Both the position numbers and the translations under genes were made by a program. A model generated the notes under the pieces. That model saw only the letters and a list, made by a program, of their open reading frames with translations. It made no database searches and was not told where the DNA came from. A DNA stretch of 64,000 nt. Source: an uncultured Altererythrobacter sp. Its GTDB lineage: Bacteria > Pseudomonadota > Alphaproteobacteria > Sphingomonadales > Sphingomonadaceae. Below are positions 13,431 through 47,477 of the stretch, in pieces. The stretch covers positions 13,826 through 77,825 of the forward strand of contig CAMPIX010000010.1 in assembly GCA_946886565.1 (NCBI GenBank), read 5' to 3'. The stretch's first letter is position 1. Every line of letters starts with the position of its first letter.

Positions 13431-13438
13431 GAACGGTT

Positions 13439-14545
13439 ATGAAAATTATCCACACCGCCGACTGGCAGCTCGGGAAACCTTTCGGGAACTTCGATGATGA
13501 AACGCGCAACGCGCTTAGCGAAGCGCGCTTTGATGCTATCGAAGCTGTAGGAAATGCAGCCGCCGCGCATAATTCAATGCATGTGCTGGTGGCAGGCGAT
13601 GTGTTCGACACCGAAGGGCCCGAAGATCGTACGATCGTTCAGGCGCTTGCTCGGATGGAGAGCTTTGCATGCCACTGGTGGTTGTTGCCGGGGAATCACG
13701 ATTTCGCGCGCAATGGCGGGTTGTGGGATCGGGTAAGGTCGCGCCGGCCCAAGAACCTGACGGTCCTTGCCGAGTACGAGCCGGTGGAAATGGAGGATGG
13801 CGTTTGGCTGCTGCCCGCGCCGCTCATCCATCGGCACACGCTCGATGATCCGACCATCGCCTTCGATGCGATGGATACGCCTGGCTCGCGGCTGCGTATC
13901 GGACTTGCGCATGGTTCGATCCGCGACTTTTCCAGCCAGGGCGACGCGAAGAACTTGATCGCACCCGATCGCGCCGCGCGCGCCAATCTCGATTATCTTG
14001 CGCTTGGGGACTGGCACGGGGCGCTGAAGGTGGACGCGCGCACGTGGTACTCGGGCACGCCCGAGACCGATCGCTTCCAGCGCGACGAACCCGGCCAGTG
14101 CCTGATCGTGGATATTGCTCCCGGCGAGCAACCGCATGTGGAGGTGCACCGCACCGGCCGCTTTCAGTGGCTTACGCGCAGCTGGACGGTGAACGATGGC
14201 GATGGCTTTGCGAGCGAATGCGACGCCTTGCTTGAGGGCTGCAAGCCCGAGACGACCCTTGTCCGCCTGACAATGGCGGGGCTTGTCGCGCTCTCCGACA
14301 GGGTGGCGATGACGACGCGGATCGAGGACGATCTTCGCCACCGCCTGCGCCATCTCGAGGTGCGCGACGGCGATTTGGTCGCGCGGCCGACGGACGAGGA
14401 CCTTTCCTCGCTCGAAGCCGAGGGTATGCTCGGCCGTGCGGTGAGTATATTGCGTGAAAAGAGCGAGAGGGGCGGGGGCGAGGCCGGGATGGCACGTCGC
14501 GCGCTGGAACGGCTGTTCGTGGAGATCGCGCGAGGGGAGGCGTAG
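13439..14545 (+). CDS. SbcD/YhaO-like metallophosphoesterase exonuclease
   Basis: A 368-residue calcineurin-like phosphoesterase of the DNA repair exonuclease type. Motifs: HTADWQLGK (residues 5-13; Gln replaces the usual His of D-x-H, as in many relatives), VLVAGDVFD, LLPGNHD, LAHGS and LALGDWHG. It is expected to act with the ATPase encoded one base downstream as a Mre11/Rad50-type or SbcCD-type nuclease on DNA ends. The ATG at 13439 was chosen for the canonical MKIIHTADW N-terminus, eight bases after the DUF3800 stop. Confidence 0.9.
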   Translation: MKIIHTADWQLGKPFGNFDDETRNALSEARFDAIEAVGNAAAAHNSMHVLVAGDVFDTEGPEDRTIVQALARMESFACHWWLLPGNHDFARNGGLWDRVRSRRPKNLTVLAEYEPVEMEDGVWLLPAPLIHRHTLDDPTIAFDAMDTPGSRLRIGLAHGSIRDFSSQGDAKNLIAPDRAARANLDYLALGDWHGALKVDARTWYSGTPETDRFQRDEPGQCLIVDIAPGEQPHVEVHRTGRFQWLTRSWTVNDGDGFASECDALLEGCKPETTLVRLTMAGLVALSDRVAMTTRIEDDLRHRLRHLEVRDGDLVARPTDEDLSSLEAEGMLGRAVSILREKSERGGGEAGMARRALERLFVEIARGEA

Positions 14546-14546
14546 G

Positions 14547-20800: not shown

Positions 20801-23169
20801 CGCAATCGCTTTAGCTCCGCGGTCTTGTGGGTCCATTCCTGCTGCGAAAGCGCCCCGCGCGCGTTCCATGCACGTTCGAGCTGCCGCAGGACCTCGATCT
20901 TGGCACTCTTGTGCGAGTGCAGTTCGAGGCAGAAATCGCCTAGCCCGACCTGCTCCAGCCGTCGGTAGACTACGTCCAGCGCGGCGCGCTTCTCGGACAC
21001 GAACAGAACGCGCCGTCCCAGTGCCAGGTTCTGCGCAATCATGTTGGCAATGGTCTGCGACTTGCCGGTCCCGGGAGGGCCATCGAGCACGAAGTTGTGT
21101 CCCTCGGCCGATGCGACCACCGCTGCCAGCTGCGAGCTGTCCGCGGGGAGGGGAGCGTAAAGGTCGGCCGGGTCGACGTCCTGGTCGAGCCTGACCGGTT
21201 CGGGCAGGGGGCCCATGCCTTCGAAGGGCTCGGTTCCACGCTCTATCAGATGCCGAACGACGGGATTTTCTTTAAGCAGTTCGCGCCGATCGATGAGATC
21301 CTTCCACATCAGGTATTTCGAGAAGGAGAAGATGCCCAGCGTCACTTGCTCGCGCACTTCGAAGCCCGGCGTGTTGGTTATCGCGCGCCTAATCTGCTGC
21401 CATACTCCAACAATGTCGGTCCCGCTGTCGTCTTTGGGGAGCTCGCCATCTAGTCCGCCGATGACAAGCCCGAAATCCTGCTTGAGCAGTTCGAGCAGCG
21501 TCATGTTGAAACGCGGCTCGTCCTCGTGCGCGACCAGCTTCATGCCCGAGCGCGCGTTGCGTCTTTCGAGCCGTACCGGCTGGAGGATCAGCGGCGCACG
21601 ATAGCTGCGCTGGTCTGTCTCCTTTTTCTTCCATTCCAGGAAACCGAGGGCGAGAAACAGCGTGTTCGAGCCCCCTTCGTTCATGTCCGCACGCGCTTGA
21701 CGGTAGAGCTTGATAAGGCTGCTATCGAGTTTGGCCTTATCAAGCTCGACGAACACCTCGTTCTTTTCCAGCCCGGCAAGCGCGTGCTCTTCCTTCAGGT
21801 CGGTACGGCTACGATCGCGGTGCAGGTCCACATCCCGCCCGCCGACGCCCAGATCGGGTAACGGCTGGACGCTGATCTTCTTACCATCGGCCAGCAGATC
21901 TTCCAGTCGGGCCGGATCGGGGCAGACGAGGTTTAGATTGCCTGCGCGCGGCAGGTTGAGCAGCCGGTTGCGGGCTGTCAGATCGAGAAGCTTGCGCTGC
22001 CATTCCTCGATCCTGTCCTTCGTTTCGCCGTCGCCTTCCTCGATCTCTACACTCTCGATCGAACCATGGTAGAGGTCCGGCGCGGGCTCTACCCGAACGC
22101 TCGCGAAGCCCTCGTCCTCATCTTCCATGCGAGTCGACGATGTCGCCAGCGGCAGGATCTTGCGCATGCGCGCACGACGCACATCGACTGTGTAGAACAC
22201 GTCGCCCGGCTCGATGCCCTCGATCTGGCGCTTGGATTCCGCGCAGGCCTGGGAAAATCGCGCGCGGTTGGCACCGGTTACCATCGTCGTCTCGAACAGC
22301 ACGATGTTGCCGAGATCGAGACGGTTGCGGAGCGCTGCGACTTCTTCGGTTACAAGCTCGGCAAACTGGTCGCGTTCGACCCATGCACCCGCGAAAGCGT
22401 GGCCGTGCGTTAACACGACGAGCGGATGCAGCCCGGCTTGCTCGATCGCCGCAGCAAACAGCAGCGCGGTGTCGAGGCAGGTCGCGACCCGCCCGGCATA
22501 GATTGCTCCGGGCGACCGGATTTTCTGGCCTCGTGTCTCGAAGCTGGCGGGCGGCAGTGCGTAGGTAAGTTGCAAACCGCTAATCGCCGACCAGATTGCC
22601 GAGACGATTTCGTAGACTCTTGCCTTGTCGCCGCTTTCGTAGCCGTCGATCGCATCCGGTCGCCCAGCCGTAGCCAGTGCCTGCGCAGCCGCGCGCAGTA
22701 CCTTCTCCACTGCAGGATCGTTCGGCATGACGAAAGCGGGTAGCAATTCCGGCATCGCGTCGGCCCCGCCCCAATCGTCCACCGCTAAGATCGTGATCGG
22801 CGTCTTGTTGCTCGCAAGGACCTCGCCTTCGCGATTCCGCAGAACGAGCGTCACCGTCCCGTGCTCGGCTTCAGCAAGTTCGCGGGCGAAGCCGGCGGCA
22901 ATGGTAACGTCGCGATCGAGCAACTGAAGACTCTCGCCCGCAGCAATCTTGTCGATGTGCCAGCAACGTTCGCTCAGAAACGCCGGATCGGCAGATAGAT
23001 CGAGATGCAGGTCAGACAGTTCCGCATCGCTTCCGTTGACGATCACGATTTCACGAAGAGGTGGAACCGCGTTCTGCTGCGACACGAAGCCGATTTTGTC
23101 GCACGCGACGAGTTCTATCCGGACCGTTTTATCGAGTTCCTGACCGTGCGTGGCGACTTCGCCTTCCAT
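17839..23169 (-). CDS. DUF4011-type superfamily 1 helicase with C-terminal nuclease domain
   Basis: A 1776-residue multidomain protein. From the N-terminus it has a beta-sandwich region (about 1-150); a transglutaminase-like domain (RVATCLDTALLF near 230, LVVLTHGHAFAGAW near 255); a DUF4011 segment (RKLLDLTARNRLLNL); an SF1 motor with Walker A GPPGTGKSQT near 695 and Walker B VIFDEAS near 1325; and AVTRARKAM motif VI. A Vsr/MTES_1575-like nuclease domain follows (IDLGVVD, GIECDGAMYH near 1670). As I recall, proteins of this DUF4011-helicase-Vsr type have been reported as antiphage (Hhe). The start is supported by GGGGGGAG just upstream of the ATG. The usual DUF3320 C-terminus lies beyond the stop, in frame. 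Confidence 0.9.
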   Translation of the reverse strand: MEGEVATHGQELDKTVRIELVACDKIGFVSQQNAVPPLREIVIVNGSDAELSDLHLDLSADPAFLSERCWHIDKIAAGESLQLLDRDVTIAAGFARELAEAEHGTVTLVLRNREGEVLASNKTPITILAVDDWGGADAMPELLPAFVMPNDPAVEKVLRAAAQALATAGRPDAIDGYESGDKARVYEIVSAIWSAISGLQLTYALPPASFETRGQKIRSPGAIYAGRVATCLDTALLFAAAIEQAGLHPLVVLTHGHAFAGAWVERDQFAELVTEEVAALRNRLDLGNIVLFETTMVTGANRARFSQACAESKRQIEGIEPGDVFYTVDVRRARMRKILPLATSSTRMEDEDEGFASVRVEPAPDLYHGSIESVEIEEGDGETKDRIEEWQRKLLDLTARNRLLNLPRAGNLNLVCPDPARLEDLLADGKKISVQPLPDLGVGGRDVDLHRDRSRTDLKEEHALAGLEKNEVFVELDKAKLDSSLIKLYRQARADMNEGGSNTLFLALGFLEWKKKETDQRSYRAPLILQPVRLERRNARSGMKLVAHEDEPRFNMTLLELLKQDFGLVIGGLDGELPKDDSGTDIVGVWQQIRRAITNTPGFEVREQVTLGIFSFSKYLMWKDLIDRRELLKENPVVRHLIERGTEPFEGMGPLPEPVRLDQDVDPADLYAPLPADSSQLAAVVASAEGHNFVLDGPPGTGKSQTIANMIAQNLALGRRVLFVSEKRAALDVVYRRLEQVGLGDFCLELHSHKSAKIEVLRQLERAWNARGALSQQEWTHKTAELKRLRDDLNGFATALHHLYPCGLTVHDAVWRVVRDDDGALPQFAWPERAQHGEAEIKAMREAVRSLELTFAGLGTLPETVSDCVRASDWSNAWQSRLLAAAQVLRSASTGLERAAHDAVRASGLPAEPSGPTEADRVLALCQAICRTAGLDMAFAFRPGHAETIDALRRQADTVRKWHALRATLSTDYRTPEAVEEAHASLAREWEVAQEKFVLLRYFAMRSCKRQMTELGGAAGAIDPSADLPILADMAQLHAKVRELDGAIEGVPASQRLDSDPDRLERLAEEGERIRAVARSQAASPEEFAGLIGALRTAVVDANEMAASDAPLGVATQALSAAGERFEQARDAFLVASAADALPGQFEQIAQLCDDLEAHQTQLNALCQWNKARDQAAALGLAPMTDRIAAGLPAGEAVPLFEAAYAKWFAPWAIDAEPRLAGFHSLSHEDKIRTFGEMTEEVQSLTSAIIRARLCSDLPDTSQVARASGFGVLKHELAKQRAHKPVRRLAEEMGKDFSALAPCMLMSPLSIAQYLPPDQDLFDIVIFDEASQITPWDAVGSIGRGRQLVLAGDQKQMPPTNFFSRGSATVDEDAMLDLESILDECVSASIPRRSLDWHYRSRHDSLIAFSNSRYYDGKLITFPAPETRETAVEWHRVDGVYAKGTEQTNAIEAKAIVAEARRRLAGKAPGETSLGIVTLNSKQQELIEDLLEQARKGDAAFDAHFADDLEEPVFVKNLETVQGDERDTIILGITFGPVEAGARKMSMNFGPLNKDGGWRRLNVAVTRARKAMLLFTSFDAGMIDLSRTASQAVRDLKHYIEFAERGPRALAEAHADSIGATESPFEDAVKAMLEQRGWAVRPQIGVSGYRIDLGVVDPDNPGDFLAGIECDGAMYHSALTARDRDKVRQAVLEGLGWTILRIWSTDFWIDAQGSIAKIDARLKQCLEEARERRVSDETGEEPGAAASARTSPDRVEEKDDVQADDTVSSSVDGRRA

Positions 23170-25186: not shown

Positions 25187-25196
25187 AGAAACCGAA

Positions 25197-26090
25197 ATGA
25201 TCAATACCGACCATCTGTCACCAGACGCGGAAGCGCTGGCGAAAGACCTTGAGCAGCACGAAGGATACTGCGTGCTGCGACGTGTTCCGAAGCCGTATTC
25301 CTCGATGCCGCATCAAGGGCCGGTACCCGATGGAAGATGCGTAGCCATCCTGGATGTCGAAACGACGGGTCTTTCAGCCCAGCACGATGTGATCATCGAG
25401 CTCGCCATCATGCTTTGTTTCCTCGACGATGAAGGCGAGGTCATCGGGCACCTCGGACCGTTCAGCTGGCTGCAGGATCCAGGCCGCGAACTCGATCCCA
25501 AGATCAGCCTGGTCACGGGCCTTCGCGCGAAGGATGTGGCGGGCCAGAAGATCAACGACGCGTTCGCCATCGGCCTGCTCGATCGTGCCAGCCTCATCGT
25601 GGCCCACAATGCCCGCTTCGACCTGGGCTTCATCGAGCGCCGCTACCCTTCACTTGCGGGGCGCGCCTGGGCCTGTTCGTGCAACGAAATCGATTGGCTG
25701 GAACTCGGCTACGAGGGACGCTCGCAATCGGCGCTTCTGGCCCACGTCGGATGGTTCAGCGATGCGCATCGAGCGGCCGCAGATGTGTGGGCGTTGTTCT
25801 GGCTCCTGCAGCACCGCGATAGCGATCCCGATGTCGGACCAACCCGCACGCATTTGCAGCGTCTGATCGAAGCCGCCTCCACTCCCTCGGTGATCGTGCA
25901 GGCCGAACGCGCCCCGTTCTCCAAGAAGGATATGCTGAAGGCTCGCGGCTACAGTTGGAAACCCGATGGTCCGTTCTGGCAGATCGAGCTGCCGCCCGAG
26001 CGCGTCGAGCACGAGCAGGCGTGGGGCTACCGCTCCGGCCTGCCGGCCATGACGACGCGCACCATCACGGCATGCCAGCGCCACCGCTGA
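25197..26090 (+). CDS. DnaQ-like DEDDh 3'-5' exonuclease
   Basis: 297 residues. The RNase H-fold exonuclease motifs are complete: Exo I ILDVETTGLS (D and E ligands), Exo II VAHNARFDLGFIERRY, and Exo III HRAAADVWALFWLL with the His-x4-Asp of the DEDDh subgroup. The C-terminal part (KARGYSWKPDGPFWQIELP) resembles small nucleic-acid-associated modules that follow such domains in plasmid and island exonucleases. The start at 25197 follows GGAG. It opens a run of five same-strand genes (25197-29389) of plasmid or island character. Role in the element (DNA maintenance or defence) is not determined. Confidence 0.85.
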   Translation: MINTDHLSPDAEALAKDLEQHEGYCVLRRVPKPYSSMPHQGPVPDGRCVAILDVETTGLSAQHDVIIELAIMLCFLDDEGEVIGHLGPFSWLQDPGRELDPKISLVTGLRAKDVAGQKINDAFAIGLLDRASLIVAHNARFDLGFIERRYPSLAGRAWACSCNEIDWLELGYEGRSQSALLAHVGWFSDAHRAAADVWALFWLLQHRDSDPDVGPTRTHLQRLIEAASTPSVIVQAERAPFSKKDMLKARGYSWKPDGPFWQIELPPERVEHEQAWGYRSGLPAMTTRTITACQRHR

Positions 26091-26168
26091 GCAGCACCTT
26101 CCACCACTTCGTATTTCAAGCCGACGACCCGCCATCCGAGCGAGTCATCTTTATGGAGATTACCAAAC

Positions 26169-27023
26169 ATGCACATCGACAATGTAAGCTTCGAACAAGC
26201 CCTCGAACGGGATGCTCGCAAGTTCCTTGGCCTGGACGCCGGAGACGAGCGAGCGGGCCGCAGCCCACAGCGCATCATCGTCGCCGATTTCGAGTATCGC
26301 TGGGACAGGAGCCGATACGATGGCTACCGCGTTAGCGAAGGCGAAAGCGCCGAGCCGACGATCCGCTGGCCCTTCCATCGCATTGCGGCTGCCTCGTGGC
26401 TACAGCTGCGCCTCGATCCAGGAGAGGAGGTTCCAGCGGTCGAAAGCGTCGTGGTTCTGGCCGAGGACGAGATGAGCGAGCAGGAGATGATCGCCCAGTT
26501 CTTCGAAGCGCTGCACCAAGTGTCGACAGCGCAGCTCATTACATGGGGCGGGGAGGTCAAGGATCTGGCGGTCCTGCGCCGGTCGGCCTGCGAGTTCGCC
26601 CTGGTCCTGCCGCGCCAGCTTACGAACGGCTCTCCGCATGCGAGGGAACGCATCGATTTGTGCCGCGCGGTCACCGTGCAGGCCAGATCGCCCCACCTGC
26701 CGGAATACGCCGCAGCAACCGCTATCCCGGCGAAACCGTCGCCGAGCAGGTCAATCGGTGATTTGGTCGAGAAAGGCGATTGGCCCAAGGTGCGCGACCA
26801 GGTGCTCGCCGATGTCCTGACCACGTCGGTTATCGCGGTGCGTCATCTCGCTGCGCACCGCGAGATCGAATGCGATCAACCCAACACCCTTATGGCTATC
26901 GCTGATGCGGTGGTGGCGGCGATCCCCGGCAGCGAGTTCGCGCGGCGCAGTTTTGCGCCGTGGGCAAGGGGGCAGAAGGCTGCAAGCGGACTGCGCGGGG
27001 CAGTCTATCGCCTCGCCGAGTGA
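26169..27023 (+). CDS. Predicted PolB-like 3'-5' exonuclease
   Basis: 284 residues. IVADFEYRWD gives the D-x-E of an Exo I motif; TWGGEVKDLAVLRR fits the Exo II region; and WPKVRDQVLADVLTTSVIAVRHLA fits the D-containing Exo III helix of the family of exonucleases related to DNA polymerase B proofreading domains. It would be the second DEDD exonuclease in tandem. The ATG at 26169 lies 78 bp after the previous stop, with a GGAG about 10 bases before it. The family call is by motif, and the third motif is divergent. Confidence 0.7.
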   Translation: MHIDNVSFEQALERDARKFLGLDAGDERAGRSPQRIIVADFEYRWDRSRYDGYRVSEGESAEPTIRWPFHRIAAASWLQLRLDPGEEVPAVESVVVLAEDEMSEQEMIAQFFEALHQVSTAQLITWGGEVKDLAVLRRSACEFALVLPRQLTNGSPHARERIDLCRAVTVQARSPHLPEYAAATAIPAKPSPSRSIGDLVEKGDWPKVRDQVLADVLTTSVIAVRHLAAHREIECDQPNTLMAIADAVVAAIPGSEFARRSFAPWARGQKAASGLRGAVYRLAE

Positions 27024-29427: not shown

Positions 29428-29793
29428 CATCCGCATTCGCGCGTCGAAGCCAGGACTGCGGCGTTCACGATTCCCCTCGCGTCCCAACAGGGTTATCCGG
29501 AAAAACCTAATCTGAGGCGGATCGCGAACCGGCAGGTCTTGGGCCGTGAGCGGTCCGCCTGCTTTCAGGTCATGAAGCAACAGAAGCGGACATCACTAGT
29601 GGGCACTGAATGTCGGTCGGATTTGGGCCGGTAGCTGTCAGTCTGCCTTTAGCTCCATTGCGCAAAAGACAGACCTTCCCCCAATCCGACTTTACAGAAT
29701 CTCAGCGAGCCTAAGGGCGAAATGTCAGAGGCCGCAGCCATCCAAGCAGTAGGCCTAAAACCAAACGAGCTGATCGGGCATAGCCGACACACC
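29428..29793. other. Intergenic region before the protease/TS-like module
   Basis: No credible gene. Near its right end (29778-29789) is the 12-mer GCATAGCCGACA, which recurs at 37908-37919 on the far side of the module. The rest shows no obvious repeat or RNA structure beyond short palindromes. Confidence 0.5.
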
Positions 29794-29820
29794 TTGACAA
29801 CTATGTCGGAATATCCGACA
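29794..29820 (+). promoter_or_regulatory. Promoter -35 and palindromic operator
   Basis: A consensus -35 TTGACA (29794-29799) is followed by the 17-bp perfect palindrome TGTCGGAATATCCGACA (29804-29820), which fills the promoter spacer. The first gene starts at 29852. The second gene of the operon encodes an XRE-type repressor-like protein, so autoregulation through this site is the simplest reading. Confidence 0.7.
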
Positions 29821-29851
29821 TTCCCCAAACCGTTTTGTTGGAGCTGAGCCG

Positions 29852-30178
29852 ATGGCCACAGTTGTCGCACCCGTGCAGAGCTTCCCGCGCCAGCGTGTGT
29901 TGGACGCGTTAACGGACGAACTGCTCAAGGTGGCCAAGTCTGAGGCTGGCGTCCGCGGAATCGCGCTTCCGCCCGATCGGCCGGCGATCATTGCAGCTCC
30001 CGTGCCGATGGATTCGCTAACGACCGTCGATGCGTTGTGCGTCCTGGACGATGTCCTCGGCTTCAAACTGAAGGAGGACGTGGTCCGGACCGGCGGATAC
30101 GATTCCGTTTCCGAGGCTCTCGAACATCTCGTGCCGCGCATCCAGGCGATCTGGGACAAGCGGAAGGTCAAGAAATGA
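29852..30178 (+). CDS. Acyl-carrier-like small protein
   Basis: 108 residues. The C-terminal half looks like an acyl carrier protein helix bundle: PMDSLTTVDALCVLDDVLG (Ser55 in the DSL phosphopantetheine-site pattern), then GYDSVSEALEHLVPRI as the third and fourth helices. The N-terminal 40 residues are a charged helix. If Ser55 is pantetheinylated, it would present an acyl or aminoacyl group to a partner; no carrier-modifying enzyme is adjacent. Alternatively the DSL resemblance is fortuitous and it is a helical adaptor. Its stop overlaps the ATG of the XRE gene (ATGA), so it belongs to the same operon. Confidence 0.55.
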   Translation: MATVVAPVQSFPRQRVLDALTDELLKVAKSEAGVRGIALPPDRPAIIAAPVPMDSLTTVDALCVLDDVLGFKLKEDVVRTGGYDSVSEALEHLVPRIQAIWDKRKVKK

Positions 30179-30543
30179 GCATCGGCAAGGCGGCGGACGA
30201 TGCGGGCGCGCGTCGTGAGATGGGCGAGCGGTTGCGCGAGTCTCGTAAATATCTTGGCCTGCGCCAAGACGAAGTCGCGCACTATCTCAACATCCCGCGG
30301 ACTGCGCTAACAGACATTGAGAACGGCAGTCGCCGCGTCGAGGCGCTGGAACTTGCCCGTCTCGCGCGCCTCTATCGGCAATCGGTTGGCTATTTCACAG
30401 GGGACGAGGCGGTATCCGCAGGTCTGCCGGCGGACGTGGCGCACCTCGCCCGGCGCGTCGCCGACCTATCCACCGAGGATCGTGCCGAGCTTGGACGCTT
30501 TGCCGATTACTTGAAGGCGCGGGCTAAGGTGGAAGGCGAGTAG
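30175..30543 (+). CDS. XRE-family helix-turn-helix regulator
   Basis: 122 residues. The HTH domain spans residues about 14-72 (MGERLRESRKYLGLRQDEVAHYLN, then IPRTALTDIENGSRRV), and a short C-terminal helix (STEDRAELGRFADYLKA) may mediate dimers. ATGA overlap with the upstream gene and a one-base gap to the metallopeptidase gene show tight coupling. XRE regulators next to ImmA/IrrE peptidases are a known pairing, in which the peptidase cleaves or removes the repressor to induce an element. The palindrome at 29804-29820 is its likely binding site. Confidence 0.9.
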   Translation: MSIGKAADDAGARREMGERLRESRKYLGLRQDEVAHYLNIPRTALTDIENGSRRVEALELARLARLYRQSVGYFTGDEAVSAGLPADVAHLARRVADLSTEDRAELGRFADYLKARAKVEGE

Positions 30544-30544
30544 C

Positions 30545-31555
30545 GTGGCCGGGAGCTACGCCCAGGCGGTGCGCAACGGCGCGATGCAGGCAGGGCGTCT
30601 GCACCGGCGCCTCGGTACGGAGGAGACGCTGACGGCGTCGGGTGGGTCTGTTGATGTTTTCGGCGCGATCAACGCGCTCGGTGTCCCGCTTCTTCTCAGG
30701 CCTCTCCGCAATCTCCTTGGTGCCTTCCTCAACGATCCGGTCCCGGGTATCCTCGTCACGACCGAGCGTCCCATGAGCATTCAGCGGCTGACCGCGGCGC
30801 ACGAACTCGGCCACTATGGGCTCGACCATCGGCCTAGTCTCGATGACGAAACCATCCTGCGGCGGATGGCGTCGTCGCAGTTGCGTTCGGACGACGACTT
30901 CCAGGAGGTGGAGGCCGACGCGTTCGCGTTCGCGTTTATGATGCCGAAGTGGCTAATCCTTCAGATCTGTGCACGGCAGGGGTGGACCGTAGTCGATCTT
31001 CGACGGCCCTCCATCGTATACCAGCTGTCGCTGCGGCTCGGCGCGAGTTACGAGGCGACTTATCGGACTCTTCGCCGCTACGAATTGATCGACCAGCACG
31101 CGATGCGCGACCTTGGAGCCGTCGAGCCGCGCCAGATGAAGATCGCCCTGCTCGGCGACTACCGGCCATCCGACTACCGAGGTGATGTCTGGCTGCTGAC
31201 CGAGCGCGACGCTGGTTGGCAGGTGGATGGAAGCCGCAACGACGTCTTCGTCCTGCGCCTGCCCGAGCACGCCGCAGGTGGCTACGTCTGGGATCGCGAC
31301 GAGTTGGCGGCGAGCGGTTACGTCGTGCTCCGCGATGACCGCGAGGGCGATGGTGGCGGCGGCGTCGGTTCAAACGTGGTGCGCCGCATAATGGGCGGCG
31401 TGGAGGCGCCACACAGGGGTAGTCTGTCGATCACCGAGCGGCGGCCTTGGGCGCCGGTGCCGCCGCTTACGACGCTATTGCTGGGAGTGGATCTCACCGG
31501 CCCCGAGGAGATTGGGCTTTCGAGGGCCGAGCGCCGCGCTCGGCTGGCGGTGTGA
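30545..31555 (+). CDS. ImmA/IrrE metallopeptidase fused to a chagasin-like inhibitor domain
   Basis: 336 residues from GTG at 30545. The N-terminal part is an ImmA/IrrE peptidase with the zinc motif HELGH (86-90) and a downstream EVEADAFAFAFMMP third-ligand helix. Residues about 232-318 fit the chagasin (I42) inhibitor family of papain-like proteases. The three inhibitory loops are recognisable: AGGYVW (244-249) for NPTTGY-x-W, GDGGGGVGS (268-276) for the Gly-rich loop, and RPW (300-302). The gene immediately downstream encodes a papain-like protease, so the inhibitor domain probably restrains it. Fusing it to a peptidase that can be activated suggests a release switch. The inhibitor assignment is by loop pattern, not by search. 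Confidence 0.8.
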   Translation: MAGSYAQAVRNGAMQAGRLHRRLGTEETLTASGGSVDVFGAINALGVPLLLRPLRNLLGAFLNDPVPGILVTTERPMSIQRLTAAHELGHYGLDHRPSLDDETILRRMASSQLRSDDDFQEVEADAFAFAFMMPKWLILQICARQGWTVVDLRRPSIVYQLSLRLGASYEATYRTLRRYELIDQHAMRDLGAVEPRQMKIALLGDYRPSDYRGDVWLLTERDAGWQVDGSRNDVFVLRLPEHAAGGYVWDRDELAASGYVVLRDDREGDGGGGVGSNVVRRIMGGVEAPHRGSLSITERRPWAPVPPLTTLLLGVDLTGPEEIGLSRAERRARLAV

Positions 31556-31559
31556 TCGC

Positions 31560-32222
31560 GTGTCGATCGTCGTGAGCAGGGATTTGGCGTCGGCGTTCGG
31601 CGGCGCTCGTGACCAGGGCGCTCGGCCGACCTGCCTCGCGTTCGCGTCAAGCGACTGCCATGCGGCGACGCTAGGGCCTTGGGAGCCGCTGTCGTGCGAA
31701 TGGATCTACCACAGCGCTCAGGCCCGCTCCGGACGTTCTCATTTCGATGGCGCGACGCTGGGCTCCATGTTGGAGGCCCTCCGACACGACGGTCAGCCCG
31801 TTGAGTCGGAATGGCCCTATCAACAAATGGTGGTCGAGCCTTGGACGCCACCGGCGGGGTCGCCCACCGTATTTCGTGCTGTTGGCGAGACCACGACAGC
31901 GGATGTCGATGCGGTCGTCGCCCTGCTCGAATCTGGGCGGCCAGCCGTCATGCTGATGACGCTGTCGCGCTCGTTCTACCTGCCGGATTCGGACGGAGTC
32001 GTCAGGGCCGCCGCGGACGAGCTTCCCGATCCGGCGGTTCGTCACGCGGTGGTGGCGACCGCGCACGGCGTTGTCGACGGTCGGAGCGCGGTACGCGTTA
32101 GGAACAGCTGGGGGACGGGATGGGGAGCGGATGGCTCCGCTTGGTTAGACCGTGATTTTTTGGCCGCGCGTCTCTTCGCGGCGTTCGGCCTATTGGGAGT
32201 AGAGGATGTATCTGCCGATTGA
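31560..32222 (+). CDS. Papain-like (C1) cysteine protease
   Basis: 220 residues from GTG at 31560, four bases after the metallopeptidase stop. The papain active site is complete: oxyanion Gln19 and nucleophile Cys25 in RDQGARPTCLAFA, His162 in DPAVRHAVVATA, and Asn182 in RVRNSWGTGWG. There is no signal peptide or propeptide, so it would act in the cytoplasm and needs another form of restraint; the chagasin-like domain encoded upstream is the obvious candidate. Its 3' end overlaps the thymidylate-synthase-like gene by 17 bases. A toxic effector role is inferred from this arrangement. Confidence 0.88.
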   Translation: MSIVVSRDLASAFGGARDQGARPTCLAFASSDCHAATLGPWEPLSCEWIYHSAQARSGRSHFDGATLGSMLEALRHDGQPVESEWPYQQMVVEPWTPPAGSPTVFRAVGETTTADVDAVVALLESGRPAVMLMTLSRSFYLPDSDGVVRAAADELPDPAVRHAVVATAHGVVDGRSAVRVRNSWGTGWGADGSAWLDRDFLAARLFAAFGLLGVEDVSAD

Positions 32223-32982
32223 ACCAGCGCCGGACTGCGTGTCAGCGTGGCGCGCAGCACTTGCGGCCGTGGATGCCAAGCCAGGACATGAGTTCCACAA
32301 CGTGATCATCGACGTAGCTGACCCGGCGGCGCGCTCCCGACTTTCCGATCCCGTGGTCGCCGCTGTTGACTCGTATCTGCGTGGAGAGGGCGAGAAGGGC
32401 ATCGAGACCGTCGCCAACACCATCTTCCCCGAGGCGCTCTATAACCTCCACGGCGCACCGCTGTTCTTCAAGCGCTTCGAGGACAATGTGCTTCCCCGGG
32501 TGAGCCTGAAGGAGTCCTGGTCCGGATACTATTTCGAGCGAATGATGCACTTTCCCAAGCCCGGCGGCGGCTTCGAGAACCAGCTCCAGCGGATCATCGA
32601 CCGGATCAACGACCCTGCAGTCCGAGCGCTGAACAAATTCGAGCTGAGCATCTTCGATCCGACGCGCGACGTGGACCGGTCACCCTACGGCGGCCAGTGC
32701 CTGAGCTTCGCCAGCTTGAAGCTGATCGGGCCCGCAGACCGTCGGCGCATCGCGATGACGGCGTTCTACCGCAACCACTTCTACGTCAGGAAGCTGCTGG
32801 GCAATCTGATCGGCCTCGGCAGGCTGATGTCGTTCCTAGCCAAGGAGACCAAGCTGGGCGTTGGGCCGCTGACGATCGTATCGACGCACGCCGAGATCGA
32901 CCTGCCGTCAACGCGGGCGGAACTGAAGGCCCTCCTCGCGCGCGTCGACGATATCGAGGCCCCGGCCGTTGCGGCCGCCTAG
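32206..32982 (+). CDS. Divergent thymidylate-synthase-fold protein
   Basis: 258 residues. From about residue 120 the sequence follows the thymidylate synthase core: ENQLQRIIDRINDPAVRA (the DQL...L..NP.SRR region); Cys165 in GQCLSF (catalytic Cys); FYRNHFYVRKLLGN, with Arg189 and Asn200 at the exact 11-residue spacing of E. coli ThyA R166 and N177; and VSTHAEID with His228 for H207. The positions of S167 and D169 of ThyA are Asn and Phe here, so folate handling probably differs. It could modify an unusual pyrimidine nucleotide or merely bind one. The start overlaps the protease gene and has GGGAGTAGAGG before it. Its stop overlaps the stop of the converging UDG-family gene. Confidence 0.8.
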   Translation: MYLPIEPAPDCVSAWRAALAAVDAKPGHEFHNVIIDVADPAARSRLSDPVVAAVDSYLRGEGEKGIETVANTIFPEALYNLHGAPLFFKRFEDNVLPRVSLKESWSGYYFERMMHFPKPGGGFENQLQRIIDRINDPAVRALNKFELSIFDPTRDVDRSPYGGQCLSFASLKLIGPADRRRIAMTAFYRNHFYVRKLLGNLIGLGRLMSFLAKETKLGVGPLTIVSTHAEIDLPSTRAELKALLARVDDIEAPAVAAA

Positions 32983-33653
32983 GCGACGTCAAGCTCCAGC
33001 TGGCCGCGGGTCCTGCCCCTGCGTGCGACGCGGTAGTGGTCGTGCATCCCGTCGATAAACTCTCGCTGCCCGCCGTAGCTCGGATGCCGGACGCATATGA
33101 CGGGGACGGTCAGCTCGGCGAGAGCCATGTGCGCGTCGCGGCCAATCGCAACCACGGTCTTCGGCCTGACCATCTCGATCAGCGCCTGCAGAATCGGCCA
33201 GGTCGCCTCGCGTTCGGACCGCGTGTGGCAGCGGTTCGACATCGGATCGTCGCGTTCGTGCGGATGGAAGGGGAAGACGTTCCACAGCATGACGGGCAGG
33301 CCGATGTCGGTCAGCACCTGCCAGACGACTGCGGCCGTCCGCTCGGCGACGATCGGTCCGGTGGTCGCCCGTTCCAGCTCCACGCCGCCGAGAAGCTGGC
33401 CCGCGTCGTCTAGGTGGACCTCGTCGGTTAGCGGAACCCCGGTGCGGCGGCCGCCGCGGTAGCCCAGGTCCCGCGCTATCCACATGGTCTCGACGCGCTC
33501 GTCCAGCGCTGCCTCGATCATGGCGAGGAGGTTGGCTCGGCGCGTCCTCGCGGCGTCGCTGCGGTCATGGATCGCGCAGCGATCCGCCCACGGATTGAAG
33601 ACGTTCGGGAGCCGCATGCTCGACAGCGTCTCTACGAAGATGGACGGGGTCAT
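32979..33653 (-). CDS. Uracil-DNA glycosylase superfamily protein
   Basis: 224 residues. The N-terminus VFNPWADRCAIHD, then WIARDLGYRGGRRTGVPLTDE (motif A region of UDG-like folds), the core NVFPFHPHE, and the C-terminal VRHPSYGGQREF (motif B region) fit a divergent UDG-superfamily branch. It may excise a base from DNA or act on free nucleosides or nucleotides. The ATG at 33653 overlaps the stop of the MazG-like gene (ATGA). It converges with, and overlaps by four bases, the thymidylate-synthase-fold gene. No iron-sulphur Cys cluster is visible. Confidence 0.75.
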   Translation of the reverse strand: MTPSIFVETLSSMRLPNVFNPWADRCAIHDRSDAARTRRANLLAMIEAALDERVETMWIARDLGYRGGRRTGVPLTDEVHLDDAGQLLGGVELERATTGPIVAERTAAVVWQVLTDIGLPVMLWNVFPFHPHERDDPMSNRCHTRSEREATWPILQALIEMVRPKTVVAIGRDAHMALAELTVPVICVRHPSYGGQREFIDGMHDHYRVARRGRTRGQLELDVA

Positions 33654-34819
33654 GACGCGATCTCCCTGACACGTAGGCGCCGGTGCTTGAAGTCGATGGT
33701 GATACGGGCCAGGCGTTTCTCGCTGAGGAACCGGAACGCCGCGTATCCCTGCAGGATCGCCTCTTCCCACAGCCACAGGGGACAGCGCTCGACCTCGTAC
33801 CCGGCCACGAACTCGCGCACGTCCTTGAGCAGGTCCAGTGGCAGCTGACCCGGCCGCATGCCCTCGAAGAAGCGGAGCTGCTGCGCCTGGCCGAACAGCC
33901 AGGTCGTGACCCCCTCCTCGATGAGCATCGCGCGCGCGCCGTCCTCGGCCTCGTCGACCGACGGGAGGCTCTTTCTCTTCAGCCGCAGCAGCGATCGCGT
34001 CACCGGGGACCAGCCAAGCACGGCGACGTAGGCGTAGTGGAAGACGTCGTGGAACCGGTAGTCGTCCGGAACGGCGGCGTTGTCGGTCAGGCGGTCCCCG
34101 ACATTGACCCCGTTCGACCGCTGGAAGACGAACGCCTGGCCGTCGATGACGCGCTCCACCACGTCGATGGTCATGGCGCGCGGCAGCGTCTCCTCGGCCG
34201 CCAGTCCCTCGTCGAAGGGAGCGGGATAAGTTCGCTCGCGTGGCCATCTGTCGAATATCTTGTGGAGGTTCTTCACAGCCGCGGCTTCGAGCGTCACGCC
34301 CGCCTCGGTGGCCGCGCGGATCAGGCACCGCATCACCTCGGTGAGCGAGTGCAGCCGCGCTTTACGCTTGTGCGGTGCCACGGCCTCGTATTGCCGGACG
34401 AGTTCGCCGACCCGAATGGCCAGCTGGAGCAGGGTCCGTTCGAAAGAGGCGGTCGGTTCGCGCGCCAGCGGCATGACCGCCGGCTGAAGTGCGTGGAAGG
34501 TCAGCGTCGGATCGGGCTGCGCCTTGGACCCATCGGCGGCCATCGCAGCGCCCGCCACCGCGCTGAGCGCGATCCTGCTCCGGCGGCACAGGGACGAGAG
34601 ATACCAGAGGACGTCGCCGAGTTCCTCGACGACTGCATCGGCGTAGCCGAGATAGGTCGTCTGGTCGCGCTGCTTCTTCTTCAGCTCAGTCAGCAGACTA
34701 CCCGTTTCGCCGAAGAGTCCGAGGAGCGCGAAGCTCAGGGCGCTGGACCCGCGCCGCTGGTCGGTCAGCGCGGCCTGCGTGGCGTATCCATCCAGGGTCA
34801 GGGCTTGGAAGTCAGTCAT
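33650..34819 (-). CDS. MazG-like NTP pyrophosphohydrolase with C-terminal HDxxH domain
   Basis: 389 residues. The N-terminal 110 residues carry the all-alpha NTP pyrophosphatase pattern: LFGETGSLLTELKKK followed by VVEELGDVLWYLSSL, i.e. the E-x-x-E and E-x-x-D metal ligands. Such enzymes hydrolyse (d)NTPs to monophosphates. The C-terminal half (about 215-389) is a separate domain with FHDVFHYAYVAVLGWSPVTRSLL and EDGARAMLIEEGV, which I recall only from similar MazG fusions of unknown role; its His/Asp/Glu residues suggest a metal site. It overlaps the genes on both sides by four bases (ATGA), giving a strict regulator-MazG-UDG operon. Confidence 0.8.
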   Translation of the reverse strand: MTDFQALTLDGYATQAALTDQRRGSSALSFALLGLFGETGSLLTELKKKQRDQTTYLGYADAVVEELGDVLWYLSSLCRRSRIALSAVAGAAMAADGSKAQPDPTLTFHALQPAVMPLAREPTASFERTLLQLAIRVGELVRQYEAVAPHKRKARLHSLTEVMRCLIRAATEAGVTLEAAAVKNLHKIFDRWPRERTYPAPFDEGLAAEETLPRAMTIDVVERVIDGQAFVFQRSNGVNVGDRLTDNAAVPDDYRFHDVFHYAYVAVLGWSPVTRSLLRLKRKSLPSVDEAEDGARAMLIEEGVTTWLFGQAQQLRFFEGMRPGQLPLDLLKDVREFVAGYEVERCPLWLWEEAILQGYAAFRFLSEKRLARITIDFKHRRLRVREIAS

Positions 34820-35010
34820 GCGCTGGTCTTCCGCCGGTCCCGGATCGCCTCCTGGGGGACCGCGATCCCGTAGGTCGACAACGCGCGCAGGACGACGACG
34901 CGCATTGGAACCCGGTCGTCGACGGCCCGGCGCTCGAGCGCTTGCTTCGTTTCAGTAGGCACCTGGACCTGCAGGTTTTCGTCCACCGGCAGAGTCTTTA
35001 CTGAAACCAT
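34816..35010 (-). CDS. Ribbon-helix-helix-type regulator
   Basis: 64 residues. A short strand (LQVQVPTETKQALERRA) followed by a helix and a second helix (MRVVVLRALSTYGI) fits the ribbon-helix-helix DNA-binding fold of small antitoxin-like regulators. It is first in the operon with the MazG-like and UDG-family genes, and its stop overlaps the MazG start. Two 6-bp palindromes at 35023-35036 lie directly upstream, with the spacing expected for side-by-side RHH dimers. On the minus strand a TTTATA box and AGGTG precede the ATG. Confidence 0.72.
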   Translation of the reverse strand: MVSVKTLPVDENLQVQVPTETKQALERRAVDDRVPMRVVVLRALSTYGIAVPQEAIRDRRKTSA

Positions 35011-35022
35011 GACACCTATAAA

Positions 35023-35036
35023 TCATGAAATCATGA
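35023..35036. promoter_or_regulatory. Tandem TCATGA palindromes, probable RHH operator
   Basis: TCATGA occurs twice (35023-35028 and 35031-35036), an 8-bp period, in the 119-bp gap between the RHH gene and the divergent phosphoesterase gene. Tandem short palindromes at 8-bp spacing are typical targets of MetJ/Arc-type dimers. It could control both directions. Confidence 0.6.
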
Positions 35037-35129
35037 GATGTGCAAGCGGCGAGGGTTGTGTGCACTAGTGGTGTGGATGTGGGTCGATCTGGCGTAGGAG
35101 CGGGCGCGGCCGCAGGCTATGTAGGGCGC

Positions 35130-37304
35130 ATGACGTCTCCGATCTTCCTGCATGTCACCGACGCCCACGTCACCGGCCACGGCGTCGCCGTGAAGCGCGA
35201 CGACCACAAGGTCGTCATTCCGGGCATTTCCCAAGCCACGCGGGAAGGGACGCTGGAGTTGCTGCTGGCGCGCGTCGCCGAGCGGCTGTTGGAGAATGGG
35301 CGGAACCTCGACGCGGTGATCTTTTCGGGCGACGCTGCCGAGCGCGGCGACTTGGGCGGACACAAGGCGCTGCTGGATATATTACTGAAGTCGCTCGGAC
35401 CCGTGGGCATCGCGCCCGGCAAGATTGTGGCGACGCCGGGCAACCATGACGTCCCGCGTGGCACGCCGCCGGGTAGCGCCGAGCGATACGAGGCCTTCAT
35501 CATGGCTTGGCGCGAGACGGGCTGCGTCACGCCTTGGCTGGACGGGATCGACGACAAGTCCACGATCAACACGGCCAAGCACCGATTGTTGGCCGATGAC
35601 CGTCGTTGGGCGATCTTCCCGATCAACAGCGCCAACTGGTCGCACACAATACAGACGTTGAAGCCGCCGCTTGAGGGGGTTTGGGAAAAGATTGGTGAGC
35701 TGCTTGCGCCCGGCGACGATAAGCTGGCCGCCGAACTAAATGATCAGCTGAATTCACTTATCCGCTTCGACATGGCCCGCGTGTCCGAGGACCAACTCGA
35801 GGTATTCCGGCGCATCGTGGACGGGACTCCGACCGCGTCTGATGGCGCGCAGGTGCGCATCGCTACGATCCATCACCACCTGCGAACGCCGTCGTTCCGC
35901 GAAGAATTGAAACCCTTCGCGGACTTCACGAACATCGAACTCATTCGTGCCGCTCTGGCTGAGCGCAGGATCGATGTCGTCCTACACGGGCACAAACATC
36001 AGCACGCCGCGCGTCGCGAGTTTCTGGACGACGAGATGGGAGGTGACCGGCGGCGAGTGCTCGTAGTGTCGGGCGCGACGTTCGACGGGAGCAACGAGGC
36101 CGACGCCGTGCGCACGTTGCAGCTCGACGGGCTGCCGTGGACCCCCGAGGTGGCCTTGACGCGATACGCGATTGGACGGGGCGGCCTGGATTTGAGGGAC
36201 GTCGTTGATGATCCCATCTCGCTATGGCGGAGCATGGATGCCGGGGGCGGTTCAACCGTCGTGCACGGCACGGTGCTCGACGACGTGTATGAGCGAGCCT
36301 GTGCCGCGGCGCAGGCCGAAGCCAAGGGCGGAACCCTCATCGTCGATCTCGACCTACCGCCTGATAGCGTCGGCACCATGCCAACCGGCTATCCAGCTCC
36401 GGACGCGCTGAAGGCCGGGGAATGGGCTGGCTGGTTCGCCGAACTCGCCGGCTGGTGGCAACTCGAGCACTCACGGCTAGAAGCCCGCGTGCCATACCAT
36501 CATGGTAGCCGGCTGCACCGATATGCGGGAAAACTGGATCAGATAGCCCGCATAAAGTCATTGTTGGCCGAGGGTGCGACGAGCCGGGCGCTCGCAGTCC
36601 TCATCGATCCAATGCGCGACTTCGTGACCAACGGCAGTGAAGAGAACTTCGCGTCTTTCTGCTCCGTCCAGTTCCGCAAGCGGGAGGTAGGCGACCGGTC
36701 GTGGGTGGTGGACGTCATCGGATACTACCGCGCCCAAGAGTTCAGGCGCTGGTGGCCTATCAACGTCGCCGAGCTCAGGGCTTTGCAGAACGAGGTTTGT
36801 GACGGCAAGCGCACGCGGCCTGGCCGGGTCACGACTGTGACGGCGGAAGCGCGCGCGATTGGACGTTCGCCGACCGAGGTGTCGGTTCCCCTGATTGACC
36901 GCTGGCTAGACCAGCACCCGGGCCGCCTTTTCCTCCTTGCCACCTACCTCGCGGGAGGCGTGGCGGAAGACGCCGGCAGCATGCGTGACGAGGTGGTGAA
37001 AGGTTGGATGCAGTCCCTCGCCGATTTCGACCAGGCCACGAAGGAGTTCAACGTTGATGGCGTGCCACTCGCGATCGAGGGCGTTGTGGCGCTTGCGGAT
37101 TACGTAGACTCGCTGGTTCCGACTGGCGACCTACAACGCTTTTCCGGGTCGCTCCGCGCGCTCGCGAAAGCCAATCGCGCCTACGCAATAACGAAGCAGA
37201 CCGAGAACGATTTCAAAAACTGGGGTGCGGCCGCCCACATCAACGACCTGCGCGAGCTCAGCGTCCGGCTGCTTGGAATGTCGGGCGGCGAGACATCCGC
37301 ATGA
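35130..37304 (+). CDS. Metallophosphoesterase fused to a thymidylate-synthase-like domain
   Basis: 724 residues from the ATG at 35130, chosen for the MTSPIFLHVTDAH N-terminus. Residues 1-350 are a calcineurin-like phosphoesterase with all motifs: D11-A-H13, GD (67-68), GNHD (104-107), HHH (248-250) and GHKH (287-290). Residues about 435-580 follow the thymidylate synthase core: GSRLHRYAGKLDQI, then TSRALAVLIDP, then YYRAQEFRRWWPIN, with Arg534, Pro543 and Asn545 at the spacing of ThyA R166, P175 and N177, and GRVTTVTAEA. The catalytic Cys is not at its usual place and the terminal His is Glu, so this domain is probably a sensor or scaffold. Its stop overlaps the next gene (ATGA). Confidence 0.8.
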   Translation: MTSPIFLHVTDAHVTGHGVAVKRDDHKVVIPGISQATREGTLELLLARVAERLLENGRNLDAVIFSGDAAERGDLGGHKALLDILLKSLGPVGIAPGKIVATPGNHDVPRGTPPGSAERYEAFIMAWRETGCVTPWLDGIDDKSTINTAKHRLLADDRRWAIFPINSANWSHTIQTLKPPLEGVWEKIGELLAPGDDKLAAELNDQLNSLIRFDMARVSEDQLEVFRRIVDGTPTASDGAQVRIATIHHHLRTPSFREELKPFADFTNIELIRAALAERRIDVVLHGHKHQHAARREFLDDEMGGDRRRVLVVSGATFDGSNEADAVRTLQLDGLPWTPEVALTRYAIGRGGLDLRDVVDDPISLWRSMDAGGGSTVVHGTVLDDVYERACAAAQAEAKGGTLIVDLDLPPDSVGTMPTGYPAPDALKAGEWAGWFAELAGWWQLEHSRLEARVPYHHGSRLHRYAGKLDQIARIKSLLAEGATSRALAVLIDPMRDFVTNGSEENFASFCSVQFRKREVGDRSWVVDVIGYYRAQEFRRWWPINVAELRALQNEVCDGKRTRPGRVTTVTAEARAIGRSPTEVSVPLIDRWLDQHPGRLFLLATYLAGGVAEDAGSMRDEVVKGWMQSLADFDQATKEFNVDGVPLAIEGVVALADYVDSLVPTGDLQRFSGSLRALAKANRAYAITKQTENDFKNWGAAAHINDLRELSVRLLGMSGGETSA

Positions 37305-37834
37305 CCGTTGGGCTAGCGCAGACGAACGGCGAAATCTTATACTTCGCTTACGGGTCCAACATGTTGACCGCGCGCCTGCGCGCAAGGGTCCCGAGCTGCA
37401 AGCCGATCGGCATTGCCTTGCTGCCAGACCACGAGTTGCGCTTTCACAAGCGAAGTAAAGACGGTTCCGGCAAATGCGATGCCTTCCACATCGAAGGCGG
37501 AGGCGGCATCTACGGCGTGGTCTTCAGCTTCAATGCCAGCGACCGTCAGGCCCTTGATCGCTTCGAAGGTTTAGGGGCGGGGTATAATGACGCGATTGTT
37601 ACGGTGCATAACGTTGAAGGCCGATCGTGGAAAGTTCTGACGTACACCGCCCATCCGCACCACATCGACGAGATGTTAAAGCCGTATTCGTGGTATCGGG
37701 ATCTCGTCCTGGCGGGGGCGAGCGAGCATGGGCTTCCGCAACAGTATGTCGCAACTAGAGTTGAAGCAGTTGAGGCGATTGAAGACCTCAACTTTGCGCG
37801 TGATGCGACCGAGCGCGCTGCACTCGAGCGGTAG
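37301..37834 (+). CDS. Gamma-glutamylcyclotransferase-family protein
   Basis: 177 residues with the family's YFAYGSNM substrate-binding loop at residues 14-21, a central GIYGVVF strand and LDRFEG, whose Glu matches the catalytic acid. Members release 5-oxoproline from gamma-glutamyl amines or dipeptides, so a role in removing an isopeptide or gamma-glutamyl link is possible here. The ATG overlaps the phosphoesterase stop (ATGA), so it is in that operon. It is the last gene of the module before the integrase, which converges on it. Confidence 0.85.
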   Translation: MTVGLAQTNGEILYFAYGSNMLTARLRARVPSCKPIGIALLPDHELRFHKRSKDGSGKCDAFHIEGGGGIYGVVFSFNASDRQALDRFEGLGAGYNDAIVTVHNVEGRSWKVLTYTAHPHHIDEMLKPYSWYRDLVLAGASEHGLPQQYVATRVEAVEAIEDLNFARDATERAALER

Positions 37835-37907
37835 CGTCGGCGCAGTGACCTGAAGATCGGCAGCTTTCAGGATCAGTCGTTTGCGCCGGGATGACCGATA
37901 TTGGGGC

Positions 37908-37919
37908 GCATAGCCGACA
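37908..37919 (+). repeat. 12-bp repeat matching 29778-29789
   Basis: GCATAGCCGACA occurs here, right after the module's last gene and abutting the integrase stop, and again at 29778-29789 just before the module's promoter. The two copies flank the 8-kb protease/TS-like module in the same orientation. It may be a module boundary or a chance sharing of a dispersed intergenic sequence. Confidence 0.4.
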
Positions 37920-40138: not shown

Positions 40139-40162
40139 AAATTGGTCGGGGAGAGAGGATTC
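40139..40162 (+). repeat. attR: 24-bp core direct repeat
   Basis: Identical to attL at 9850-9873. It overlaps the 3' end of the tRNA-Pro gene (minus strand) through the CCA, acceptor strand and part of the T-arm, so integration leaves the tRNA intact. Confidence 0.9.
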
Positions 40163-47300: not shown

Positions 47301-47477
47301 GTGGCGGAACCACCATGGGTCGTTTTCCTTGGAAATCCACTGACGCCTAAGGGTCAGGTGGGCGCCGTATGCCCCGATCCCCAGGACGAACCAGTGAACC
47401 GAAGCAGGGACAGCTCCCGTGGATTGCTTATAGCCCCAGGGATTTTCTTGAAGGCTCGTGCCGGGCAGTCCCGCCAC
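47301..47477 (-). ncRNA. ssrS: 6S RNA
   Basis: About 177 bases between zapA and the 5-FCL gene. The ends pair through GTGGCGGGA and TTCCGCCAC (closing stem). Internal blocks typical of alphaproteobacterial 6S RNA are visible on the minus strand, such as GGGGCTATAAGCAATCC, TTCACTGGTTCGTCCTGGGG and GGCGCCCACCTGACCC. 6S RNA mimics an open promoter and binds the housekeeping RNA polymerase. Exact ends are estimates. Confidence 0.85.

Follow-up and report, generated by a model that had tools for sequence, protein, structure and literature searches.

Two described modules pair an XRE-family repressor with an ImmA/IrrE-type metallopeptidase that bears an HExxH motif, namely CapH-CapP of the cyclic oligonucleotide-based antiphage signaling system (CBASS) and DdrO-PprI/IrrE of Deinococcus. 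According to passages in PMC10904395, single-stranded DNA (ssDNA) stimulates repressor cleavage by PprI and CapP. A different kind of control protein is chagasin/ICP (MEROPS I42), which is recognized by its fold and by three contact motifs (GY, G, and RPW). In this study, we analyzed a 64,000-nucleotide stretch of contig CAMPIX010000010.1 from an uncultured Altererythrobacter sp., hereafter called the window, in which the genes at 29852-37834 combine the XRE-peptidase pair of the former modules with the fold and motifs of the latter. We found that seven of these genes form a real system. They encode an acyl carrier protein (ACP)-like protein, an XRE repressor, an ImmA peptidase with an I42 domain, a papain-like C1 protease, a thymidylate synthase (TS)-like enzyme, a uracil-DNA glycosylase (UDG)-superfamily protein, and a MazG pyrophosphohydrolase. 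A fusion of a metallophosphoesterase with a second TS domain (MPE-TS) is an optional partner of this core, and a GGCT-family protein is cargo.

The initial annotation had described ten linked genes in 8 kb, and the open reading frame (ORF) listing of the window bears this out: all ten are present and tightly packed, with stops and starts that overlap or are separated by a few bases. We assigned families by Pfam and NCBIfam profile searches of the ten proteins and defense families by PADLOC. The plus strand carries the ACP-like protein (29852..30178), whose invariant Ser is by analogy the phosphopantetheine site, followed by the CapH-like XRE repressor (30175..30543; HTH_31, 5.3e-10), a CapP-like ImmA/IrrE metallopeptidase (30545..31555; Peptidase_M78, 1.2e-9) in which residues ~1-200 form the peptidase and ~211-318 the chagasin domain, the C1 protease, which lacks a propeptide (31560..32222; Peptidase_C1, 8.4e-7), and the TS-fold enzyme, with its nucleophile position intact (32206..32982; TIGR03283, 1.5e-6). 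Tail to tail with the latter, the minus strand carries the UDG-superfamily gene (32979..33653; PF03167, 1.4e-7, above the cut-off), MazG with a MazG_C domain (33650..34819; MazG, 2.9e-5; MazG_C, 3.9e-77), and a small putative DNA-binding protein of 64 residues (34816..35010). MPE-TS (35130..37304; Metallophos, 5.9e-10; TIGR03283, 5.8e-9) and the GGCT/AIG2-family protein (37301..37834; AIG2_2, 2.8e-12; AIG2_2/GGACT) are again on the plus strand. The profiles thus agree with the earlier XRE, ImmA/IrrE, chagasin-like, papain-like, TS-fold, UDG, and MazG calls and with the metallophosphoesterase-TS fusion. A ribbon-helix-helix call for the 64-residue protein was not upheld, as its sole profile match is DUF6088 at E 0.12. 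PADLOC gave no match for ACP, C1, TS, UDG, MazG, the small protein, or GGCT, and for MPE-TS it gave PDC-S60 alone, weakly (5.8e-4). Because such models match the XRE/ImmA pair and, weakly, MPE-TS, surveys that use them are likely to miss the set.

The core is widespread. Scanning 84,980 species, each represented by a single genome, with a profile returned 303 pattern matches, 251 of which encode a confirmed relative of the TS-like protein. We counted neighborhoods, using protein models built from few reference loci, in the best 80 of the 251 loci picked by likeness to the window, a choice from which the frequency of other types cannot be inferred. These 80 loci represent 41 groups at 90% TS identity. 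ACP, XRE, ImmA, I42, C1, and TS were found in all 80 loci and all 41 groups, such that the control switch is present in every locus examined, while UDG and MazG were each found in 77 loci and 39 groups; three of the four loci with gaps stop at a contig edge. The order ACP-XRE-ImmA.I42-C1-TS, facing UDG-MazG, is kept across the fetched loci, which bears out the earlier expectation that the genes travel together, as does a ten-gene block common to another genome (G001). The ACP-XRE-ImmA-TS order also occurs in archaeal, cyanobacterial, and actinobacterial relatives. The remaining genes of the window set are less constant: the small protein model matched in 40 loci (14 groups), and MPE-TS, which can precede or follow the core, in 7 loci (4 groups). 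The GGCT model, in turn, matched in none of the 80 loci, which rules out GGCT as a core member and removes it from the module proposed in the initial annotation. A holo-ACP synthase was found in three loci (3 groups), and a rebuilt integrase model matched in one (L043).

Relatives that lack C1 and I42 have the reduced arrangement ACP-XRE-ImmA-TS-kinase-MazG (L006, L092, L099, L100, L007, L093, and L102). Among 299 genomes of the phylum of G001, 28 had matches, and three of these (G001, G290, and G089) hold the system. The other 25 encode a long ORF, mostly of ~500 residues, with a TS-like domain (L106-L131), and no system neighbors were found within their 2.8-3.5-kb loci. Given the long branches of L091, L005, and L008 on the TS tree and the support of 94/48 for the UDG/C1 group, we claim no evolutionary history.

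The control half of the system resembles CapH-CapP most closely. The best PADLOC matches of the XRE protein are RmrA (1.1e-10) and capH (4.5e-10), and that of the ImmA protein is capP (1e-11); residues H86, E87, H90, and E121 of the latter, which bears the HExxH motif, are kept in 42 of 42 sequences. A perfect palindrome, ATGTCGGAATATCCGACAT, lies at 29803..29821 on the plus strand, 30 bp upstream of the ACP gene, and is the sole zero-mismatch site in the window. When up to three mismatches are allowed, two sites are found where 0.23 are expected, and the second of them has three mismatches. Of 47 loci, 43 have a like palindrome (at least 12/16) in the 200 bp that precede ACP, compared with 22 of 2350 control stretches. 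The half-sites co-vary between loci, as in ATGTCTGAATATCAGACAT, and in several loci the palindrome appears, by eye, to lie between -35- and -10-like words. These features suggest that the palindrome is likely the operator of the XRE protein. Two operator-like palindromes, at 7600 and 7631 and 31 bp apart, are found upstream of ACP in the Brevundimonas copy (L047). By analogy with PprI and CapP, the ImmA protein may respond to an ssDNA-type trigger.

The feature that sets this switch apart is the joining of an inhibitor-type domain to the peptidase. Inhibitor_I42 matches the window protein at E 0.0025, below the cut-off, and scores above it in relatives L011 (8.6e-8) and L091 (4.1e-11). In the predicted model the segment takes the chagasin fold, in agreement with the original call of a chagasin-like domain, and the GY, G, and RPW contact motifs are conserved. 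The C1 protein has a profile match in the PDB at 4e-20, and its Q19, C25, H162, and N182 (the oxyanion Gln and the Cys-His-Asn triad, with residue 25 as the catalytic Cys) are present in 46 of 46 sequences. The inhibitor-bearing gene lies directly 5' of the protease gene, and the two domains track each other: I42 is present in all 89 loci with C1 and in none of 7 relatives without it. The I42 domain is predicted to inhibit the C1 protease.

The nucleotide half of the system consists of enzymes that we assessed, for the TS-like and UDG segments, by sequence models alone. TIGR03283, a methanogen-type TS equivalog, gives 27.9 bits for the TS-like protein and 35.8 bits for MPE-TS, both far under its curated cut-off of 174.55. 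The TS-like protein nevertheless keeps C165 and N200, which we take to be the nucleophile and the pyrimidine-binding residue, in 53 of 53 sequences, R189 in 49, and H228 in 45. The UDG protein scores 32.1 bits against PF03167 (cut-off 24.3), and D62 and the HPS motif are present in 39 of 40 sequences, the remaining one having a gap. In the Nioella copy (L064, 10810-12532), the UDG gene is interrupted by ~1.5 kb of other DNA. The TS domain of MPE-TS matches the TS-like protein in a profile comparison (E 1.2e-5, probability 81%), and none of 13 aligned sequences has a Cys at the nucleophile place, where the residue is Phe by motif alignment or Glu by profile match. Four residues farther along, a Cys is variable across the family: a motif that includes it is matched by 105 of 120 proteins, and S, T, or L takes its place in most of the remaining 15. 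In all six plasmid records that carry MPE-TS it adjoins parts of the system, two of them having UDG-MazG only in the stretch read. Relatives that lack UDG carry a protein of the 5-hydroxymethyldeoxyuridine (5-hmdU) DNA kinase family (HMUDK_hel; 5e-114, 2e-66, and 1e-104), a family with no Pfam match among the ten proteins of the window. One such relative is annotated as a "putative DNA base hypermodification protein" and stands beside a dCTP deaminase, and dTMP kinase or dCTP deaminase genes are found near some of the kinase-type relatives. The tie to pyrimidine chemistry that had been proposed is strengthened by these genes in the clusters, which point to a nucleotide derived from deoxyuridine monophosphate (dUMP), possibly 5-hydroxymethylated.

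The carrier protein of the window has no Pfam match, and a profile of 42 sequences finds solved ACPs in the PDB weakly, at E ~1e-3. Its predicted model is of moderate quality (pLDDT, the predicted local distance difference test, 80; pTM, the predicted template modeling score, 0.65). All 53 of 53 sequences have a Ser at the aligned position, within Asp-Ser in 51 and Asn-Ser in two (L099 and L100). A gene for holo-ACP synthase or 4'-phosphopantetheinyl transferase (PPTase) adjoins ACP in L004, L085, L088, L089, L091, and L101, and in L099 and L100 a gene of one of these two kinds stands at the opposite end of the cluster. The neighbor in the archaeal locus L091 is the most telling case, since to our knowledge archaea generally have no fatty-acid ACP machinery. 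The earlier ACP-like call is supported by the invariant Ser, the nearby PPTases, and weak profile matches.

The ten genes, MPE-TS and GGCT included, are one transferred block. Positions 29540..37911 (8.4 kb) are 99.5-100% identical to a part of G001 that has a different chromosomal setting, the edges are sharp, and no megablast match was found in the remainder of the 66 kb of G001 that we compared. The element had been described as inserted at a tRNA, and a 24-bp direct repeat (9849-9872 and 40139-40162) does bound a 30.3-kb island, its 40139 copy lying at the 3' end of tRNA-Pro; a 712-residue ORF beside this repeat, with no Pfam match, is taken as the integrase. This island is ruled out as the transfer unit, however, as only the ten-gene block is common to G001. 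ARAGORN found no tRNA in the 66-kb G001 stretch, and the listed long ORFs that flank the block there look by eye like ordinary chromosomal genes, with no recombinase recognized. The edges at 29540 and 37911 have no clear repeats: in the 350 bp compared, no direct repeat of at least 10 bases was found at the block ends in the window or in G001, and inverted repeats at the ends of the unit reach 9 bases at best. No recombinase was recognized inside the block.

Comparisons among other loci agree with independent movement of the unit in some pairs and not in others. In agreement with it, L012/L015, L050/L059, L056/L058, and L056/L082 have the core in common and little beyond it, the common block of L047/L077 stops within MazG, and L052/L057 have in common the core and MPE-TS, plus one weaker stretch elsewhere. 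By contrast, longer or further stretches are common to L012 with L013/L014, L052/L054, L050/L055, and the L064 group. In a 20-member group (L020, L022-L032, L034-L036, L038-L040, L042, and L060), the entire fetched stretch, mostly 20.7 kb (maximum, 20.8 kb), is ~95-100% identical. Its members belong to at least five sphingomonad genera, including Sphingopyxis, Novosphingobium, Sphingobium, Aurantiacibacter, and Hankyongella, a distribution that would be seen with a large mobile element that has recently spread.

Our data directly support the gene content and order, the co-transfer, the conserved catalytic residues, the chagasin fold of the predicted model, and the conserved upstream palindrome. 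From these we lean, with a confidence that stops somewhat short of even, toward a model in which the seven-gene core is an inducible defense switch where a CapP-like, chagasin-bearing metallopeptidase restrains a papain-like protease beside likely deoxypyrimidine enzymes. In a resting cell, the XRE repressor bound at 29803-29821 would hold the operon low, and the I42 domain would block C1, a protease with no propeptide of its own. An infection or DNA-damage signal, which in the relatives PprI and CapP is ssDNA, would activate the ImmA domain; this would cleave XRE, and the protease would be let go through self-cleavage or a change of shape, such that a single event would both raise operon expression and free the protease. 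The freed C1 would be the effector, probably acting on proteins of the cell or of the invader. TS-like, MazG, and UDG would act on a deoxynucleotide that is modified or of the uracil type and that likely derives from dUMP. They would thereby starve, corrupt, or monitor the pyrimidine pool while an infection proceeds, and the carrier protein would be a partner of the TS step. Where MPE-TS is present, its Cys-less TS domain may bind the same nucleotide and switch the phosphoesterase. We favor defense because of the type of control, the mobility, the defense-type neighbors, the LmuB-like protein of the island, which stands beside a metallophosphoesterase, and the DUF4011-helicase-nuclease protein of the same island.

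Several results weigh against this model. The protease is not universal, as the core exists without C1, and three viral contigs carry a protease-less form; the link between C1 and I42 can be explained by one change on the TS tree and does not require many independent events. No protein in phage records matches the ImmA protein at E 1e-3. The nucleotide genes are at times separable from the switch: L088 has MazG and no UDG match, relatives of UDG (27-45% identity) stand alone in four of four plasmid loci examined, and the stretches read of L010 and L098 contain UDG-MazG-MPE but no switch. In G001, a short deletion breaks MPE-TS, which there corresponds to a form of 576 residues (P0126; 99% identity over 78%) rather than 724. 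Matches to PDB profiles are weak for TS-like (E 0.17) and UDG (E 0.061), and Foldseek places an ACP at the top for the carrier model and lists many more, with a best E of 0.51 that is not significant. Upstream of ACP, the palindrome scores below 12 in 4 of 47 loci, and the operator claim is weakened because a sigma-70 scan called no promoter at 29803-29821 in the window.

The main rivals of the defense switch are a base-modification pathway and an addiction module. In the former, the TS-like enzyme would make a 5-substituted dUMP, MazG and UDG (or kinase or dCTP deaminase in relatives) would purify the pool, and the carrier would deliver an acyl or aminoacyl group, while XRE, ImmA, and C1 would merely control expression or mature an enzyme. 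The HMUDK_hel proteins of relatives, including the one annotated for base hypermodification beside a dCTP deaminase, and the PPTase genes fit such a pathway, but none of the ten window proteins of this UDG-type unit matched a model for group transfer to DNA, and the pathway has no need of an I42-gated protease; we consider it doubtful, while taking it seriously. In the latter, C1 would be the toxin, ImmA.I42 the antitoxin, and the nucleotide enzymes further cargo, and the toxin-antitoxin pair would serve to retain mobile DNA. This would account for the location on conjugative plasmids and an island, for the placement of the inhibitor gene immediately before the protease gene, and for the transfer of the unit as a block. 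The module is large, however, and nearly every one of the 80 copies retains TS, UDG, and MazG, which is beyond what addiction alone would need; we consider this explanation unlikely. A bolder idea, and a clearly improbable one, is that the TS-fold enzyme makes an activated pyrimidine nucleotide that is held or captured by the phosphopantetheine carrier, whose thiol could trap the methylene intermediate of that enzyme, and that charged carrier together with ssDNA makes the CapP-like peptidase open the chagasin domain and free the protease.

Two further explanations were weighed. ImmR and ImmA are transfer regulators of integrative and conjugative elements, and the XRE-ImmA pair, which on some plasmids stands beside par, mob, or conjugation genes, might regulate the transfer of its host element in the same manner. 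Yet in G001 the block lies in 66 kb with no tRNA and with no recombinase recognized by eye among the long ORFs listed, and the full-match palindrome is unique in the window, so that we regard this role as very unlikely. That the genes are neighbors by chance could be argued from the habit of islands of gathering unrelated cargo, of which GGCT is an example. The recurrence of the core in 80 of 80 loci and the ACP-XRE-ImmA-TS order in archaeal, cyanobacterial, and actinobacterial relatives speak so strongly against coincidence that we assign it practically no weight and count it as ruled out.

The surroundings of the system hold further genes of possible interest. Read off rather than tested statistically, the neighbors in relatives include caspase or CHAT proteins, SIR2, AAA/ABC-3C, and restriction genes. 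In the island of the window, a second candidate defense pair is encoded at 13421-17189. It consists of a metallophosphoesterase, SbcD-like by eye, and, after it, a large AAA/coiled-coil protein that PADLOC matches to LmuB (4e-13) and GajA-type models. A protein of 1776 residues, encoded at 17839-23169, combines DUF4011 with an AAA_11/AAA_12 helicase and an MTES_1575 nuclease. The same island also carries, at 10450-11250 and 25194-27023, a DUF2971 (PDC-S31) protein, a DEDDh exonuclease (PDC-S48 match), and a PolB-type exonuclease. Elsewhere in the window, a 6S RNA (RF00013, 50.1 bits) lies on the minus strand at 47303-47474.

If the defense model is correct, the papain/chagasin pair would be an intracellular immune switch of bacteria and archaea that is tied to DNA-damage sensing of the IrrE/CapP type, and prokaryotic conflict would include a role for a carrier protein and for a TS-fold enzyme. 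Should the charged carrier prove to be the signal, the system would be a new class of prokaryotic immunity, with the first immune signal based on a carrier protein and the first chagasin-gated protease in bacterial defense.

Among the literature matches listed, a scope outside which older surveys of nucleotide-centric conflict systems fall, we found no description of this gene set, and each of its nearest counterparts differs from it in a definable way. In comparison with CapH-CapP, the peptidase of the window has a C-terminal chagasin domain and adjoins a papain protease and TS, UDG, and MazG genes with no cyclase; the profile and PADLOC matches of the ten proteins include no cGAS/DncV-like nucleotidyltransferase, and membership in CBASS is thereby ruled out. 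Unlike chagasin/ICP, the I42 domain is fused to a sensor-type metallopeptidase and encoded beside its presumed target, in bacteria and one archaeon. The main text of the DefensePredictor report (PMC13092281) describes TS, 5-hmdU kinase, and metallophosphatase domains in systems validated in E. coli and MazG, MazG-C, and UDG domains in predicted ones; that main text contains none of the terms "acyl carrier," "ImmA," and "protease," and an M15 peptidase belongs to another predicted system. Compared with its TS/5-hmdU kinase systems as described there, the set of the window has UDG and not the kinase. The phosphoesterase domain of MPE-TS matches that of the DS-9 metallophosphatase system (NF053862, E 9.6e-15), but it scores 54.4 bits against a cut-off of 420, and its partner is a Cys-less TS domain where that of DS-9 is a HAD phosphatase. 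The reduced relatives have the same core with no C1 and no I42, and a kinase of the HMUDK_hel type replaces UDG. Because no known system that we tested fits the whole set, we think it fairly probable that this is a new kind of system, one whose control half works like CapH-CapP and whose nucleotide half recalls predicted nucleotide-modification systems.

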